A DNA stretch of 64,000 bases from Saprospiraceae bacterium (GTDB lineage: Bacteria; Bacteroidota; Bacteroidia; Chitinophagales; Saprospiraceae). The notes beneath the pieces are model-generated. The model saw only the letters and a program-made list of their open reading frames with translations. It had not been told where the DNA came from and searched no databases. This document shows, in pieces, positions 1,363 through 63,324 of the stretch. Position 1 is the stretch's first letter; each line of letters starts with the position of its first letter. The DNA is taken from NCBI GenBank assembly GCA_028285545.1, contig JANQPA010000076.1, positions 1-64,000 of the forward strand, written 5' to 3'. The translations under genes were made by a program, and so were the position numbers.

Positions 1363-1479
1363 CCAAGTTGCTTTGCAACTTGGGGTAATAGGAAAAAAGT
1401 AGAAAGTGGAAGGACAATTACCTTTATTCTTCCTTAATGGCTGATATTTTTAATGATAAGTCAAAACCTTTCTACTTTA
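1363..1479. repeat. Composite intergenic repeat: 9-bp hairpin plus TTTCTAC-type units
   Basis: At 1363-1383 a perfect hairpin has arms CCAAGTTGC and GCAACTTGG and loop TTT. It is followed at about 1399-1413 by GTAGAAAGTGGAAGG and, after a spacer, by the inverse form CCTTTCTACTTT at 1468-1479. Read on the minus strand the order is TTTCTAC-like units followed by a GTTGC-AAA-GCAAC hairpin, the same order as the element at 38861-38901. The element fills the gap between the DUF2911 and NamZ-like genes. Its function is unknown; it could act as a terminator or be a dispersed repeat. Confidence 0.6.
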
Positions 1480-1530
1480 TACCTTTTACATTCTTTAATT
1501 AAATTACGCTCCAACTCGGGGTATTTAACT

Positions 1531-12894: not shown

Positions 12895-13018
12895 TTAAGT
12901 ATTTTTTTAAAAAGATTATGCCTTCGCTCACACCTCTATCCCCTATAAGGGAAATCCAATGGTATATTTTGGTTTTTAATTCAAAATTCATTCATTCAAA
13001 ATTTAAAATTATTTATTT

Positions 13019-13066
13019 CCCCAATACCCCAATACCCCAATACCCCAATACCCCAATACCCCAATC
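13019..13066. repeat. CCCCAATA tandem array (six 8-bp units)
   Basis: Five perfect CCCCAATA units and a final CCCCAATC run head to tail. The last unit overlaps the TGA stop of the pentapeptide-repeat gene by two bases. Just upstream (about 12977-13011) is an AT-rich stretch of ATTCAAAATT/ATTCATTC-like units. The array is a simple microsatellite-like repeat with no spacers, so it is not a CRISPR. Confidence 0.9.
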
Positions 13067-13631
13067 ACTCCACCACAATTCCATATTTATCCAACAAGCC
13101 CATGACTCCCTCTAATGAAAATTTAGCTCCCTTAAGACGATTTAATTCCGGATCAATCCTAAAATTGAAAGCAGTCCTGAAATCTGCTTTTTCTAAATTG
13201 GTTTTTTCAAAAACGGAGTTGCTAAGATCCGTATTCGAAAACTGGGCATTAGAAAGATTGGCCTGGGCAAAGTCAACTTCTTGTAAACTACATTGATTAA
13301 AGGTAATGTTTTGCAAACCTACTCCAACAAAAGAAGAAAGGTTAAGCAAACACTGGTCAAAATCTACTGAGAAAACCAATTGGTAAGAGTCTTCAAAATG
13401 TAAGCCCAGCATTTTACAATTGTTGAAGCGAACCTCTCGAAAAGCAGTTTTATGGAGCTGCACCATACTCAAATCACATTCGTGAAAGGAGCAATCGATA
13501 AACTTTATTTCTGATAAGTCTGAATTTGAAAAATTGCAATTGGAAAAACTACAATTTTCATACTCTCCTGTTTGAAGAAATGATTCAGAGTAATCTTTTT
13601 CATTAAAAACCTCACCTTCAATATAAATCAT
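13065..13631 (-). CDS. Pentapeptide repeat protein
   Basis: The 188-residue protein consists mostly of A(D/N)LXX-type pentapeptides with F or L at every fifth position, for example CSFSNCNFSNSDLSEIKF around 27-44 and VDFAQANLSNAQFSNTDL near 118-135. Such sequences fold into a right-handed quadrilateral beta-helix. The two-block layout and length resemble small cytoplasmic members, including the Qnr gyrase-protection group, but that is similarity of form only and a resistance role is not shown. A non-repeat C-terminal tail (about 155-188) contains FRIDPELNRLKGAKF. A TATTTTTG box on the minus strand at 13658-13665 could be the -7 element. The 3' end overlaps the CCCCAATA array. Confidence 0.88.
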   Translation of the reverse strand: MIYIEGEVFNEKDYSESFLQTGEYENCSFSNCNFSNSDLSEIKFIDCSFHECDLSMVQLHKTAFREVRFNNCKMLGLHFEDSYQLVFSVDFDQCLLNLSSFVGVGLQNITFNQCSLQEVDFAQANLSNAQFSNTDLSNSVFEKTNLEKADFRTAFNFRIDPELNRLKGAKFSLEGVMGLLDKYGIVVE

Positions 13632-34638: not shown

Positions 34639-34658
34639 AAATGAGTTAATCGTTAATC

Positions 34659-34706
34659 GTTATTGAGTTATTCGTTATAAAACCTAATAACGAATAACTC
34701 AATAAC
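34659..34706. terminator. Perfect 20-bp stem-loop built from AATAAC units
   Basis: GTTATTGAGTTATTCGTTAT at 34659-34678 pairs perfectly with 34687-34706 across an 8-nt loop (AAAACCTA). More units continue outside the stem (CGTTAATCGTTAA before it; AAATAACCC-AATAAC-AAATAACC after it). It sits between the convergent permease and cupin genes, so it could act as a bidirectional terminator, although the stem is AT-rich and not a classic GC stem. Confidence 0.65.
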
Positions 34707-34791
34707 AAATAACCCAATAACAAATAACCTTTCCCAAATTAAGATTAGATTTATCAGCGATTCCTAATTTTTTATTTATCTGACTTTAGTC

Positions 34792-38647: not shown

Positions 38648-38795
38648 GGTTTATTGTTTGGATATTCCATCTTTGAGGTGTAATGCTTTCCCCGCAGAAG
38701 GAGTTTAATACTTGATGTGGTAAAAATAATTCAAAGGTTTAATTCAATTGTCTTTAATTAGTGGTTCTTCAGAGTGTTTCTAGTCCAAAAATAAA

Positions 38796-38836
38796 TAAAT
38801 TAGGGCATTCCAACTATACTGGAATGCCCTAATTTA
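38796..38836 (-). terminator. Strong 17-bp stem-loop terminator of the sigma-factor operon
   Basis: TAAATTAGGGCATTCCA (38796-38812) and TGGAATGCCCTAATTTA (38820-38836) form a perfect 17-bp stem with a 7-nt loop (ACTATAC). On the minus strand the stem is followed by a T-rich TTTATTTTTGG tract, as expected for intrinsic termination of the gene ending at 38907. Confidence 0.8.
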
Positions 38837-38860
38837 TGAGTTGAAATTAATTACTAATAT

Positions 38861-38901
38861 CTTTCTACTTTCTACTTTCTACCATTATGTTGCAAAGCAA
38901 C
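38861..38901. repeat. Composite repeat: (TTTCTAC)3 plus GTTGC-AAA-GCAAC hairpin
   Basis: Three TTTCTAC heptamers run from 38862 to 38882, and after a short spacer the hairpin GTTGC-AAA-GCAAC occupies 38889-38901. The gene ending at 38907 is a few bases beyond. The same composite, in the opposite orientation, lies at 1363-1413. Confidence 0.75.
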
Positions 38902-38906
38902 CTGAA

Positions 38907-39365
38907 TTAGTAATTCTCTATAGTACTTTTGGTATTTATCTCAGGTAAGTATACTGAGTCAGGGTAGTTGTCTTCAAGTTGAGGTTTGCCAATTTGTGCA
39001 TCGGGAAAAATCCTGATTTCCTGGTGCTCTTGCCCTGAAGGTAGAGGTTTATTATCCCAGAGGCCAAAAATAAAGGAAGCTACAGCCAGTAATAAAAATC
39101 CTGCGGCTAGCTGATAGATTGGACTTCTGTGAGTGAACATAAAATGAAGACCTGATTGCTTATTTTGTAACACAGGCAGTGGCGGAGTTGAAATGTTGAT
39201 TGACGCATCTATCGACTTGAAATCAGCAATTAGTAATTGATATTCTGAATATTCTTCAGGGCTCATAAAAGGGGCCACCAATTCCTTCTCCACAGAAGAA
39301 AGCACTGAATAGGGCTTCTCAGAGAGCAAATCAAAAATCTCGCTTGGCAAATGATCAATATTCAT
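38907..39365 (-). CDS. Membrane-anchored anti-sigma-factor-like protein
   Basis: The 152-residue protein has a cytoplasmic N-terminal region (about 1-80), one membrane helix (about 84-103, YQLAAGFLLLAVASFIFGL) and a short exterior tail. It overlaps the ECF sigma gene by 4 bp (ATGA-type overlap), the usual arrangement for a sigma factor and its membrane anti-sigma factor. No zinc-finger motif (H-x3-C-x2-C) or FecR domain is visible, so the role is inferred from context. Confidence 0.65.
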   Translation of the reverse strand: MNIDHLPSEIFDLLSEKPYSVLSSVEKELVAPFMSPEEYSEYQLLIADFKSIDASINISTPPLPVLQNKQSGLHFMFTHRSPIYQLAAGFLLLAVASFIFGLWDNKPLPSGQEHQEIRIFPDAQIGKPQLEDNYPDSVYLPEINTKSTIENY

Positions 39366-50090: not shown

Positions 50091-52607
50091 ATGAAAAGAC
50101 GATTAACTAACCTGACAACAATTTTAATAGTACTCTTTAGTATGACAGCTTGTACCGAAACTTTAGAAAAAGAAGAGGGAAGCATTCCCATAAACCCCGA
50201 AAATTGGCCTCTTACCAACGGGGGGATTCCGATAGAAGCAGAAATAGAAGCCAAGATTAGTAATCTTATTGCTTCTATGACTCTGGAAGAAATGGTAGCA
50301 CAGACCATACAGCCTGATATTGCCTCAATCACTCCTTCGGAATTTAAAAAGTATAAGTTCGGTTCAGTATTGAATGGAGGAAATTCTGCACCTGGTGGTA
50401 ATGTGAGAGCTCCCGCAACAGAATGGCTCCAACTGGCCGATGAATTCTATGCTGCCTCCATCGATACCGACAAAAATGGAGCATCCATTCCTTTGCTCTG
50501 GGGAACCGATGCAGTTCATGGCCACAATAATATAGTAGGAGCTACTATTTTTCCACATAATATTGGTTTAGGTGCAACACGAAACCCTGATTTGATTCGC
50601 AAAATAGGGCAGGTCACTGCTAAAGAAGTAAAAACAACCGGAATGGATTGGACCTTTGCTCCTACATTAGCAGTAGTCCGTGATGATCGTTGGGGACGCA
50701 GTTATGAAGGCTATTCTGAAGATCCCGAAATAGTCGCAGACTACGCCGGCGCTATGGTAGAAGGTTTGCAAGGAATTCCCGGAACAGATAATTTTTTAGA
50801 TAAAGAACATGTCTTAGCTTGTGCAAAACATTTTCTTGGCGATGGGGGAACCCAGAATGGCAAAGATCAAGGAGACAATCTGGATAGCGAAGAGGATTTC
50901 AGGAATCATCATGGAGCAGGTTACCCTCCTGCCATTGAGGCTGGTGTGCAAACGGTAATGGCCTCTTTTTCTTCTTGGAATGGCCAAAAAATGCATGGCA
51001 ATAAACAACTTCTAACTACAGTATTAAAAGAACGGATGGGCTTCAATGGTTTTGTTGTGGGAGATTGGAATGGCCATGGACAATTACCTGGTGCTGATAA
51101 GACAAATAGCCCTGCTTGTATGATAGCAGGTTTAGATATGTACATGGCTCCCGATAGCTGGAGAGGCCTATATAAGAATTTGCTGGCTCAGGTAAAATCT
51201 GGAAAGATTCCTAAATCCAGAATAGAAGATGCGGTTCGCAGGATCCTTAGAGTCAAATTCCGCCTAGGGCTTTTTGATTTGCCTAAACCTTCAGAACGAC
51301 CCTTTGCCGGTCAATTTGAATTATTGGGGGCACCAGATCACCTAAAAGTTGCCAGACAAGCTGTCAGGGAATCATTAGTGCTGCTTAAAAACCAAAATAA
51401 ATTATTGCCTTTATCTCCTAATCAAAGAATTCTTGTTGCAGGAGAGGCTGCTAATAATATAGGCAAACAATGTGGAGGTTGGACTTATTCCTGGCAGGGA
51501 ACCGGTAATGCCAATGCGCATTTTCCAAATGGACAGTCTATTTGGCAAGGTATTCAGCATGCTGTGGAGGAAGGAGGTGGAGAAGCGGTCTTTAGCCCTG
51601 GTGGAGATTACCAGCAAAAGCCGGATGTTGCCATTGTTGTTTTTGGTGAGCAACCTTATGCTGAATTTATGGGAGACCGGGAGGATTTAAAGTTTAAACC
51701 CGATGAAGGTCTTAATTTATTAAAGTCTTTTCGCGATGCTGGCATTCCAACAATAGGAATATTTTTGTCAGGCCGCCCAATGTGGGTAAACCCGGAAATT
51801 AATGCTTCTGATGCTTTTGTTGCTGCCTGGCTTCCTGGTAGTCAAGGTGCAGGAATTGCTGATGTATTAATAAACCAGGCAGATGGTTCCATTAATTTTG
51901 ATTTTAAAGGTAAACTCTCCTTTTCCTGGCCTGGAAGGGCAAATCAAACCAAACTTAATCGAAATGATTCGGATTATGATCCGCTTTTTCCTTATGGATA
52001 TGGTTTAACTTATTCAGATGAGGGGAACCTGGCCCAGTTGTCTGAAGATTCTGGAATGGAAGAACAGGCTGACTTGAAAAACCTGTTTTTTGTTAAAGGA
52101 AATGCTCAGGGGCCCTGGAAATTGATTGCAAAAACGGAATCGGAAGAAAAAACAGTTCAGGATGCTCCCCTTCAGCTTGCTCAGGAATTAAGTATTAAAT
52201 CTGTTGATCATAATGCACAAGAAGATGCCAAGCAAATAAATTGGCAGGGTGAAAGCCAAGGAGCGATACTTATTTCTGGTCTTCCGGTGGATTTAAGCCG
52301 AGAAACAAATGGAGAAATGGCTCTTTCTTTTGAATATAGAATAGACAAATTACCAGAAAATCCAGTGTTCTTGTTTATGGAATCAGGGGATGAAAAGGTA
52401 ACTGAAATAGAGATTGGAAAGCTATTCTCAAAAGATAGCCAGGGGAACTGGACTAAAAAAGAAATTAGTTTATCTTGTTTTGCCGAAGCTGGCACAGATA
52501 TGTCAAATTTAAGCACCGTTTTTGGACTTAAGACGAGAGGCACCTTTAGTATCAGCTTCTCAAAAATAGAATTGGTCTCCAATCAGGGTGAAGCAATTTG
52601 TCCATAA
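50091..52607 (+). CDS. Glycoside hydrolase family 3 beta-glucosidase, lipoprotein
   Basis: The 838-residue protein has lipobox MTAC (Cys21) and the two-domain GH3 layout. LWGTDAVHGHNNIVGATIFPHNIGLGATRN and GRSYEGYSEDPEI mark the TIM-barrel domain; GFVVGDWNGHGQLPG holds the nucleophilic Asp near residue 325, and KHFLGDGGTQNGKDQG is a substrate-binding block. The second domain carries LVLLKNQNKLLPL, and the C-terminal 160 residues form an ExoP-type galactose-binding-like module (about 690-838). It would hydrolyse beta-glucosides at the cell surface or in the periplasm. The GH125 gene follows after 33 bp on the same strand. Confidence 0.92.
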   Translation: MKRRLTNLTTILIVLFSMTACTETLEKEEGSIPINPENWPLTNGGIPIEAEIEAKISNLIASMTLEEMVAQTIQPDIASITPSEFKKYKFGSVLNGGNSAPGGNVRAPATEWLQLADEFYAASIDTDKNGASIPLLWGTDAVHGHNNIVGATIFPHNIGLGATRNPDLIRKIGQVTAKEVKTTGMDWTFAPTLAVVRDDRWGRSYEGYSEDPEIVADYAGAMVEGLQGIPGTDNFLDKEHVLACAKHFLGDGGTQNGKDQGDNLDSEEDFRNHHGAGYPPAIEAGVQTVMASFSSWNGQKMHGNKQLLTTVLKERMGFNGFVVGDWNGHGQLPGADKTNSPACMIAGLDMYMAPDSWRGLYKNLLAQVKSGKIPKSRIEDAVRRILRVKFRLGLFDLPKPSERPFAGQFELLGAPDHLKVARQAVRESLVLLKNQNKLLPLSPNQRILVAGEAANNIGKQCGGWTYSWQGTGNANAHFPNGQSIWQGIQHAVEEGGGEAVFSPGGDYQQKPDVAIVVFGEQPYAEFMGDREDLKFKPDEGLNLLKSFRDAGIPTIGIFLSGRPMWVNPEINASDAFVAAWLPGSQGAGIADVLINQADGSINFDFKGKLSFSWPGRANQTKLNRNDSDYDPLFPYGYGLTYSDEGNLAQLSEDSGMEEQADLKNLFFVKGNAQGPWKLIAKTESEEKTVQDAPLQLAQELSIKSVDHNAQEDAKQINWQGESQGAILISGLPVDLSRETNGEMALSFEYRIDKLPENPVFLFMESGDEKVTEIEIGKLFSKDSQGNWTKKEISLSCFAEAGTDMSNLSTVFGLKTRGTFSISFSKIELVSNQGEAICP

Positions 52608-63128: not shown

Positions 63129-63201
63129 TAGCCGGATGTTAAAAGGAACATCTATTTTAATAATTCATTATAATCATTTCTTATTTAAGAATTGACTTTA
63201 T

Positions 63202-63304
63202 AACGAAGGGTGGAGAGATCGGGCTCTTTGAAACCCTGGCAACCTGGAATTACTTTAATCCAAGGTGCCAAATCCCGCCAAGTATCCGTTGATTCGGGTT
63301 TTTT
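63202..63304 (+). ncRNA. SAM-I (S-box) riboswitch upstream of metX
   Basis: The leader shows the conserved SAM-I blocks in order: GTGGAGAGA (63210-63218), TTTGAAACCCTGGCAACC (about 63227-63244) and GGTGCCAAATCC (63264-63275), with AACG (63202-63205) able to pair with CGTT (63287-63290) as P1. After the aptamer, ATCCG-TTGATT-CGGGT plus a T6 run (63284-63304) looks like an intrinsic terminator. The location directly upstream of metX, a methionine gene, fits S-adenosylmethionine feedback. How the terminator and P1 exclude each other was not resolved, so translation control also remains possible. Confidence 0.9.
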
Positions 63305-63324
63305 GGACATATAAACTCAAAGCG

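Follow-up and report, generated by a model that had tools for sequence, protein, structure and literature searches.

The window, by which we mean the whole stretch of 64,000 nt analysed here (positions 1 to 64,000 of contig JANQPA010000076.1, C75 in our numbering), comes from a Saprospiraceae genome (G000) of 10,158,594 bases in 129 contigs, all of which were searched. Two sites in it, at 1363 to about 1489 (copy 1) and at 38849–38913 (copy 2), are decayed pieces of a longer non-coding element that is dispersed through the genome; in its complete form this element carries at each end a palindrome that we call H (CAAGTTGC-NNN-GCAACTTG). A preliminary description had reported TTTCTAC-like units followed by a GTTGC-AAA-GCAAC hairpin at both sites and in opposite orientations, and this is what they contain: the minus strand of 1363–1413 reads CCTTCCACTTTCTACTTTTTTCCTATTACC-CCAAGTTGC-AAA-GCAACTTGG, that is, TTTCTAC-like units and then a perfect 9-bp hairpin, and the plus strand of 38862–38901 has three exact TTTCTAC units, 6 nt and then GTTGC-AAA-GCAAC. 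The hairpin had been called perfect, which holds over 9 bp in copy 1 and over only 5 bp in copy 2. The features of the two sites are as follows.

1363–1383, no strand: terminal palindrome H of copy 1, CCAAGTTGC-TTT-GCAACTTGG, with 9-bp arms; exact match to the H consensus at 1364–1382.
1384–1415, plus strand: first heptamer arm of copy 1, GTAATAG-GAAAAAA-GTAGAAA-GTGGAAG, with tip GGAC; aligned to other copies.
1416–1466, minus strand: core of copy 1, long sub-family; BLAST relatives in the genome at 70–83% identity over at least 100 nt.
1467–1489, plus strand: second, inverted heptamer arm of copy 1, CCTTTCTAC-TTTATAC-CTTTTAC; base-paired to the first arm when the copy is folded as DNA.
1500–1518, no strand: possible eroded far-end palindrome of copy 1, assigned with low confidence (5 mismatches to H; flanks match at only 6 of 9 positions).
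38849–38857, plus strand: left flank of copy 2, AATTACTAA, a possible direct repeat (8/9) of 38905–38913.
38862–38882, plus strand: heptamer arm of copy 2, with three exact TTTCTAC units and no arm opposite it.
38886–38904, no strand: degenerate palindrome H of copy 2, TATGTTGC-AAA-GCAACCTG, with a 5-bp core at 38889–38901; the exact core is matched elsewhere in the genome.
38905–38913, plus strand: right flank of copy 2, AATTAGTAA, overlapping the stop codon of a minus-strand gene at 38907–39365.

The flanks of copy 2 can also pair with each other in inverted orientation, as they do in the DNA fold, and copy 2 stayed outside the direct-repeat test of flanks described below. Relative to shuffled sequences, DNA folding gave z-scores of −3.0 for copy 1 and −2.3 for copy 2, and a search of the window for Rfam RNAs and tRNAs returned none at either site. 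A terminator-like hairpin with 18-bp arms (ATAAATTAGGGCATTCCA...) lies at 38795–38837, 24 nt ahead of copy 2.

Inside the window the hairpin alone is unremarkable (two matches at up to one mismatch, 0.84 expected), and the heptamer dimer TTTCTACTTTCTAC is enriched (7 versus 0.89 at up to two mismatches); the significance of the hairpin comes from genome-wide counts, the window alone being insufficient. With the reversed motif as the control for motif counts, the whole genome holds 334 dimers at up to one mismatch (185 forward and 149 reverse) versus 11 (7 and 4), 44 sites of H (the 19-nt palindrome CAAGTTGCNNNGCAACTTG) at up to one mismatch versus 0, 125 H sites versus 17 at up to three mismatches, and five sites of the exact core GTTGCWWWGCAAC versus 0. 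We also used a 1.264-Mb sample made up of the window and 60 further stretches, each of 20 kb, from contigs that had come up in the initial searches, which is not strictly random given that some stretches held places already listed by the heptamer-dimer search. In this sample 5 of 11 H sites (up to two mismatches) have a strict heptamer dimer no more than 60 nt away, as does only 0.5% of the DNA, and the reversed control of H is absent. Taken together, the dimer and H counts and the proximity of H to dimers reject pure chance as the origin of these repeats; the earlier claim that the two copies reflect something other than chance was thus borne out, with copies across the genome far above the control.

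The composite of units and hairpin is therefore real, but the two-part repeat as first described had to be given up as the unit, since a reading of its relatives shows it to be one end of a symmetrical element. In its fuller form, this element consists of a ~9-bp direct repeat, H, GTAGAAA heptamers, a loop or core, inverted TTTCTAC heptamers, H and the direct repeat again, such that terminal inverted repeats are present, with H at both ends and inverted arms within. In the middle lies a loop of a few nt or, alternatively, a core of ~45–60 nt, and a complete element measures ~100–220 nt (99–221 nt between the outer edges of H in 24 two-ended elements). The 1.264-Mb sample contains 55 heptamer arrays versus 16 for the control, and all 13 pairs of neighbouring arrays within 150 nt of each other are ordered GTAGAAA-then-TTTCTAC (L→R), the control yielding no pairs. 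The spacers between paired arrays are 2–11 or 29–64 nt long, conserved cores occupying the longer ones, and the BLAST relatives of copy 1 (70–83% identity, at least 100 nt) have H on one or both outer sides. Among 54 readable elements the tips of the arms are unequal in 37, with one AAGGA and one AAAGA (12 are A/A and 5 are G/G), which gives the element a polarity. An element at another locus (L112) folds as DNA with a z-score of −5.3. Across 65 palindromes, double changes in H number 19 (~9 expected under independence), and 11 of these are complementary; as the ends of any given element are related to each other, this covariation is only suggestive. The arms of one element are marginally more alike than arms of different elements (p = 0.067; p = 0.037 in a second test, for which arm requirements of 2 nt to 30 nt retained 16 of 47 L-R elements), and this mirror order of the two arms was too marginal to be used as proof.

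Many loci were picked because they carry the motifs, and counts drawn from them (gene placement, tip polarity, the two-ended flank test, lone H, gene context and stem mismatches) describe elements, not density. In the two-ended flank test, which excluded duplicates and any two H separated by fewer than two heptamer-like units, the best 9-mer direct matches between the flanks of 24 elements sum to 171 of 216, compared with 151.9 when flanks are permuted among elements, and none of 20,000 permutations reached this value. An inverted-match control gave p = 0.75, windows displaced by 12–60 nt on both sides gave p = 0.16–0.76, and of four asymmetric displacements one gave p = 0.018 and three p = 0.24–0.59. 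Where both ends lie within three mismatches of H (n = 17), nine elements reach a flank match of 8–9 of 9, with 4.2 expected. The usual target is AT-rich and ATTAATTAA-like, and background matching is high (152 of 216) because this consensus is itself palindromic; clear direct repeats that depart from it are TTATACTAA (L069), ATTAGTTAA (L112) and ATTAAATAA (L087). The same test found no direct repeats at arm-only hairpins (p = 0.82) or at six elements of a related genome, G072 (p = 0.49). The better matching of flanks within than between elements appears to be a signature of insertion with target-site duplication, and the mobility already suggested in the preliminary description gains support from these element-specific ~9-bp direct repeats at palindromic ends.

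We infer mobility from the direct repeats together with the dispersal of the copies. A transposase supplied in trans, recognising the elements by their palindromic ends, would have inserted them and duplicated the target, after which the arms may lengthen or shorten through slippage of the 7-nt unit; H alone and a second small palindrome, Y (see below), would likewise behave as dispersed modules, with Y nesting within arms. No transposase partner of the element was found, and among the H sites listed at up to one mismatch no pair has the IS-like spacing of ~0.7–4 kb that would mark an autonomous copy, in an assembly of 129 contigs that may lack such copies. The one same-genus genome searched for empty sites (G058) is about 67–69% identical over its longest matches, with no synteny at the copies; queried with the DNA of both window regions, it returned only scattered genes and repeats.

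The placement of the copies bears on a different explanation, namely that they act as bidirectional transcription terminators or stabilisers of mRNA 3′ ends, with stems maintained because the RNA hairpin works. Using gene calls from our own hexamer script, and leaving out duplicates and features less than 300 nt from the end of a stretch, we found that not one of the 67 composite elements falls within a called gene in DNA that is 88% coding; 11 of 51 lone arrays and 5 of 21 lone H do fall within one, and some of these may be chance matches. Arm-only hairpins, which lack H, lie within 20 nt of a gene on 29 of 39 stop sides versus 4 of 25 start sides. Convergent genes enclose more of them than expected (12 of 32, p = 0.0014), and ten that were folded as RNA form stems of up to 31 bp with z-scores of −5.8 to −12.3; these observations speak for a terminator. 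Elements bearing H, however, favour divergent regions (11 of 35, p = 0.015); they are less often close to stop codons (no more than 20 nt away on 13 of 28 stop sides) or between convergent genes (4 of 35), and no run of T follows the stem in the copies read by eye. Furthermore, the 26 short-loop hairpins retained for the count of stem mismatches (of 47 L-R elements, under arm requirements of 2 nt to 30 nt) contain 684 Watson–Crick pairs, 79 transition mismatches and 19 others, and in co-directional contexts the sense strand shows 19 G·U versus 18 A·C, i.e., no bias towards the RNA strand. As the polarity of the element is also unrelated to the direction of transcription (9 versus 8), selection on a transcript is not detected, and the RNA terminator was rejected as the primary cause on the lack of strand bias; we regard this explanation as unlikely. 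The mismatches would fit decay of an inserted palindrome by transitions. If the copies are inserted elements, arm-only hairpins would adjoin stop codons because insertion is least harmful there, and any role at transcript ends would be secondary.

One may also postulate that the heptamers are plain microsatellites, produced by replication slippage at many places and immobile, with inverted pairs arising by template switching. Many short-period arrays of several unit lengths indeed exist in the same genome, with 84 in the 1.264-Mb sample, 77 of them intergenic, and the marginal similarity of an element's own arms (p = 0.067; p = 0.037) would be expected on this account; the common palindromic caps, the common cores, the direct repeats and the conserved unequal arm tips are all left unexplained by it, and we consider it quite improbable. 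Less probable still is a REP or REPIN moved by a RAYT (Y1, IS200-like) transposase, in which the GTAG of GTAGAAA would be the REP tag. The inverted doublets, the palindromes, the GTAG and seven Y1_Tnp matches in the genome are compatible with such a system, but none of the seven loci has H, Y or a heptamer dimer within about 1.5 kb, and the proposal was rejected on this lack of association. Moreover, GTAG recurs in the arm heptamer and is not one tag beside the palindrome: H is followed by a variable RGTA or CTAGTA, and neither a GTAG nor a CGTC tag beside H was found in the elements read. To our knowledge, Y1 transposases are not expected to duplicate their target, and the apparent target-site duplications fit them poorly. 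We favour the reading in which the family consists of short, non-coding, MITE-like inserted elements and both window sites are degraded copies, to which we assign a probability of roughly 0.6. It draws on the copy number, the L→R order of neighbouring arrays, the absence of composite elements from called genes, the direct repeats, the polarity of the arm tips, the lack of strand bias and the lineage-specific amplification. The element is best described as DNA of a MITE-like, non-autonomous kind, whose arms are microsatellites and which harbours nested tiny palindromes.

The nested palindrome Y (AACTACC-NNN-GGTAGTCAGG) has 44 genome sites versus 14 for the control at up to three mismatches. Among the best 30 of these 44 sites, with contexts sorted by reading of the sequence, 21 lie inside heptamer arrays in one orientation and nine in another repeat context. 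The second context, TTTTTTCTCACGC-Y-GATTTCGCAGATTT, is an unrelated-looking repeat (L352, L362, L365, L368, L374 and L375), and several Y sites are near contig ends. H also occurs alone, between TTAATTAA-like flanks, and at one locus (L156, position 2870) it sits inside the loop of a hairpin with GAGATAAATG-like arms, which looks like a nested insertion. Of the 77 intergenic short-period arrays, 24 have a reverse-complement copy within 130 nt (2 for the reversed control, 4 direct), and these belong to several unit families.

Several further features of the window were recorded. An intergenic octamer array, (CCCCAATA)n at 13014–13070, represents one of the several short-period families in the genome, and 34652–34713 is a hairpin with 27-bp arms of degenerate 7–8-nt units (GTTAATCGTTATTGAGTTATTCGTTAT); the overlapping stretch 34679–34730 is matched at 83–88% in two contigs of G058. 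A palindromic repeat at 48–99 has several copies on both strands of G058, and TTTGAGGGGTGATTTTTAAGGAAAAAT-type palindromes of 24–28 bp, seen repeatedly in the sample, stand at the very start of contigs C33, C56 and C125. A SAM riboswitch (RF00162, 73.9 bits) at 63195–63317, the one match of the Rfam and tRNA search, lies upstream of a plus-strand gene that runs off the end of the window. The relatives of a Glycoside hydrolase family 3 gene at 50142–52604 are nearly all proteobacterial among the 80 matches listed (46–57% identity); horizontal acquisition is possible for this gene, and near records may be absent from the scan.

Across 199 genomes of the family, counts of heptamer dimers at up to one mismatch are mostly near the control and exceed it in G058 (45 versus 6), G107 (46 versus 3) and G115 (56 versus 9). 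Of 16 chosen relatives, G058 of the same genus among them, 5 show the strict short-loop hairpin pattern and none has more than three matches, so the amplification is, as far as these comparisons indicate, lineage-specific. H at up to one mismatch is present in 21 of 150 family genomes (44 sites in G000, 16 in G072, 7 in G058 and 1–3 in the others) and in 12 of 198 genomes of the phylum, where only G000 has more than one. In other genera H caps different arms: inverted ones built from a TTAGTTAT-like 7–8-nt unit in G072 and, in G104, ATGTAAAA-like ones with a GGAC tip as in the GTAGAAA elements. Given that H caps three kinds of arm, it is possible, though we put this forward only tentatively, that this bacterial family has a modular class of miniature mobile elements that owe their mobility to a conserved terminal palindrome, with microsatellite arms that are interchangeable. 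If so, the other inverted short-period arrays of the genome would arise by the same cycle of insertion plus slippage.

The element resembles the SDR/STRR mosaics of Nostoc and the BrickBuilt MITE of P. gingivalis. The SDRs (small dispersed repeats) were reportedly described by Elhai et al. in 2008 as palindromes of ~20–27 nt nested in tandem heptamers and minitransposons. On this definition, the nesting of Y in heptamer arrays at 21 of the 30 best-matching loci, together with lone H, is similar; the phylum and the sequences are different, and here the heptamers make up the two inverted arms within a larger unit, which itself ends in such palindromes and has ~9-bp direct repeats. Elhai et al. 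2008 is cited in the REPIN report (PMC3116915). REPINs and GTAG-tagged REPs (PMC3116915, PMC3733652) share with our elements extragenic, hairpin-forming inverted doublets, a non-autonomous nature and lineage-specific amplification; our elements differ in having no RAYT gene nearby, no single GTAG tag and apparent target-site duplications. In the BrickBuilt MITE of Porphyromonas gingivalis (PMC4596501), a 23-nt unit is repeated in a single direct array, and the TIRs resemble those of ISPg1/ISPg9. This is likewise a tandem array carried by a Bacteroidota element that is short, intergenic and non-autonomous, with inverted ends and no transposase remnant within; the Saprospiraceae element, however, has two inverted arrays of a 7-nt unit and palindromic ends, and no IS match was found for it. 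TAACTGA heptamer repeats are reported (PMC4679880) from Beggiatoaceae, cyanobacteria and some Bacteroidetes as direct arrays mostly just upstream of start codons; intergenic 7-nt tandem arrays and a patchy distribution are common to both, whereas inverted pairs, frequent placement at stop codons and palindromic caps set our elements apart. Neither the literal string TTTCTACTTTCTAC nor a composite of heptamer arms and H was found in the open-access papers searched, most subscription papers lying outside this search.

The finding is larger than first described, comprising a MITE-like family with microsatellite arms, palindromic caps and nested tiny palindromes. Heptamer microsatellites and tiny palindromic repeats are scattered over several bacterial phyla without an accepted route of spreading. 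Given that the heptamers form the arms of a capped element with apparent target-site duplications, both types of repeat are tied to insertion; the element thereby gives a testable route for the dispersal of heptamers and tiny palindromes, and some of the repeats of this 10-Mb genome are explained by the family.
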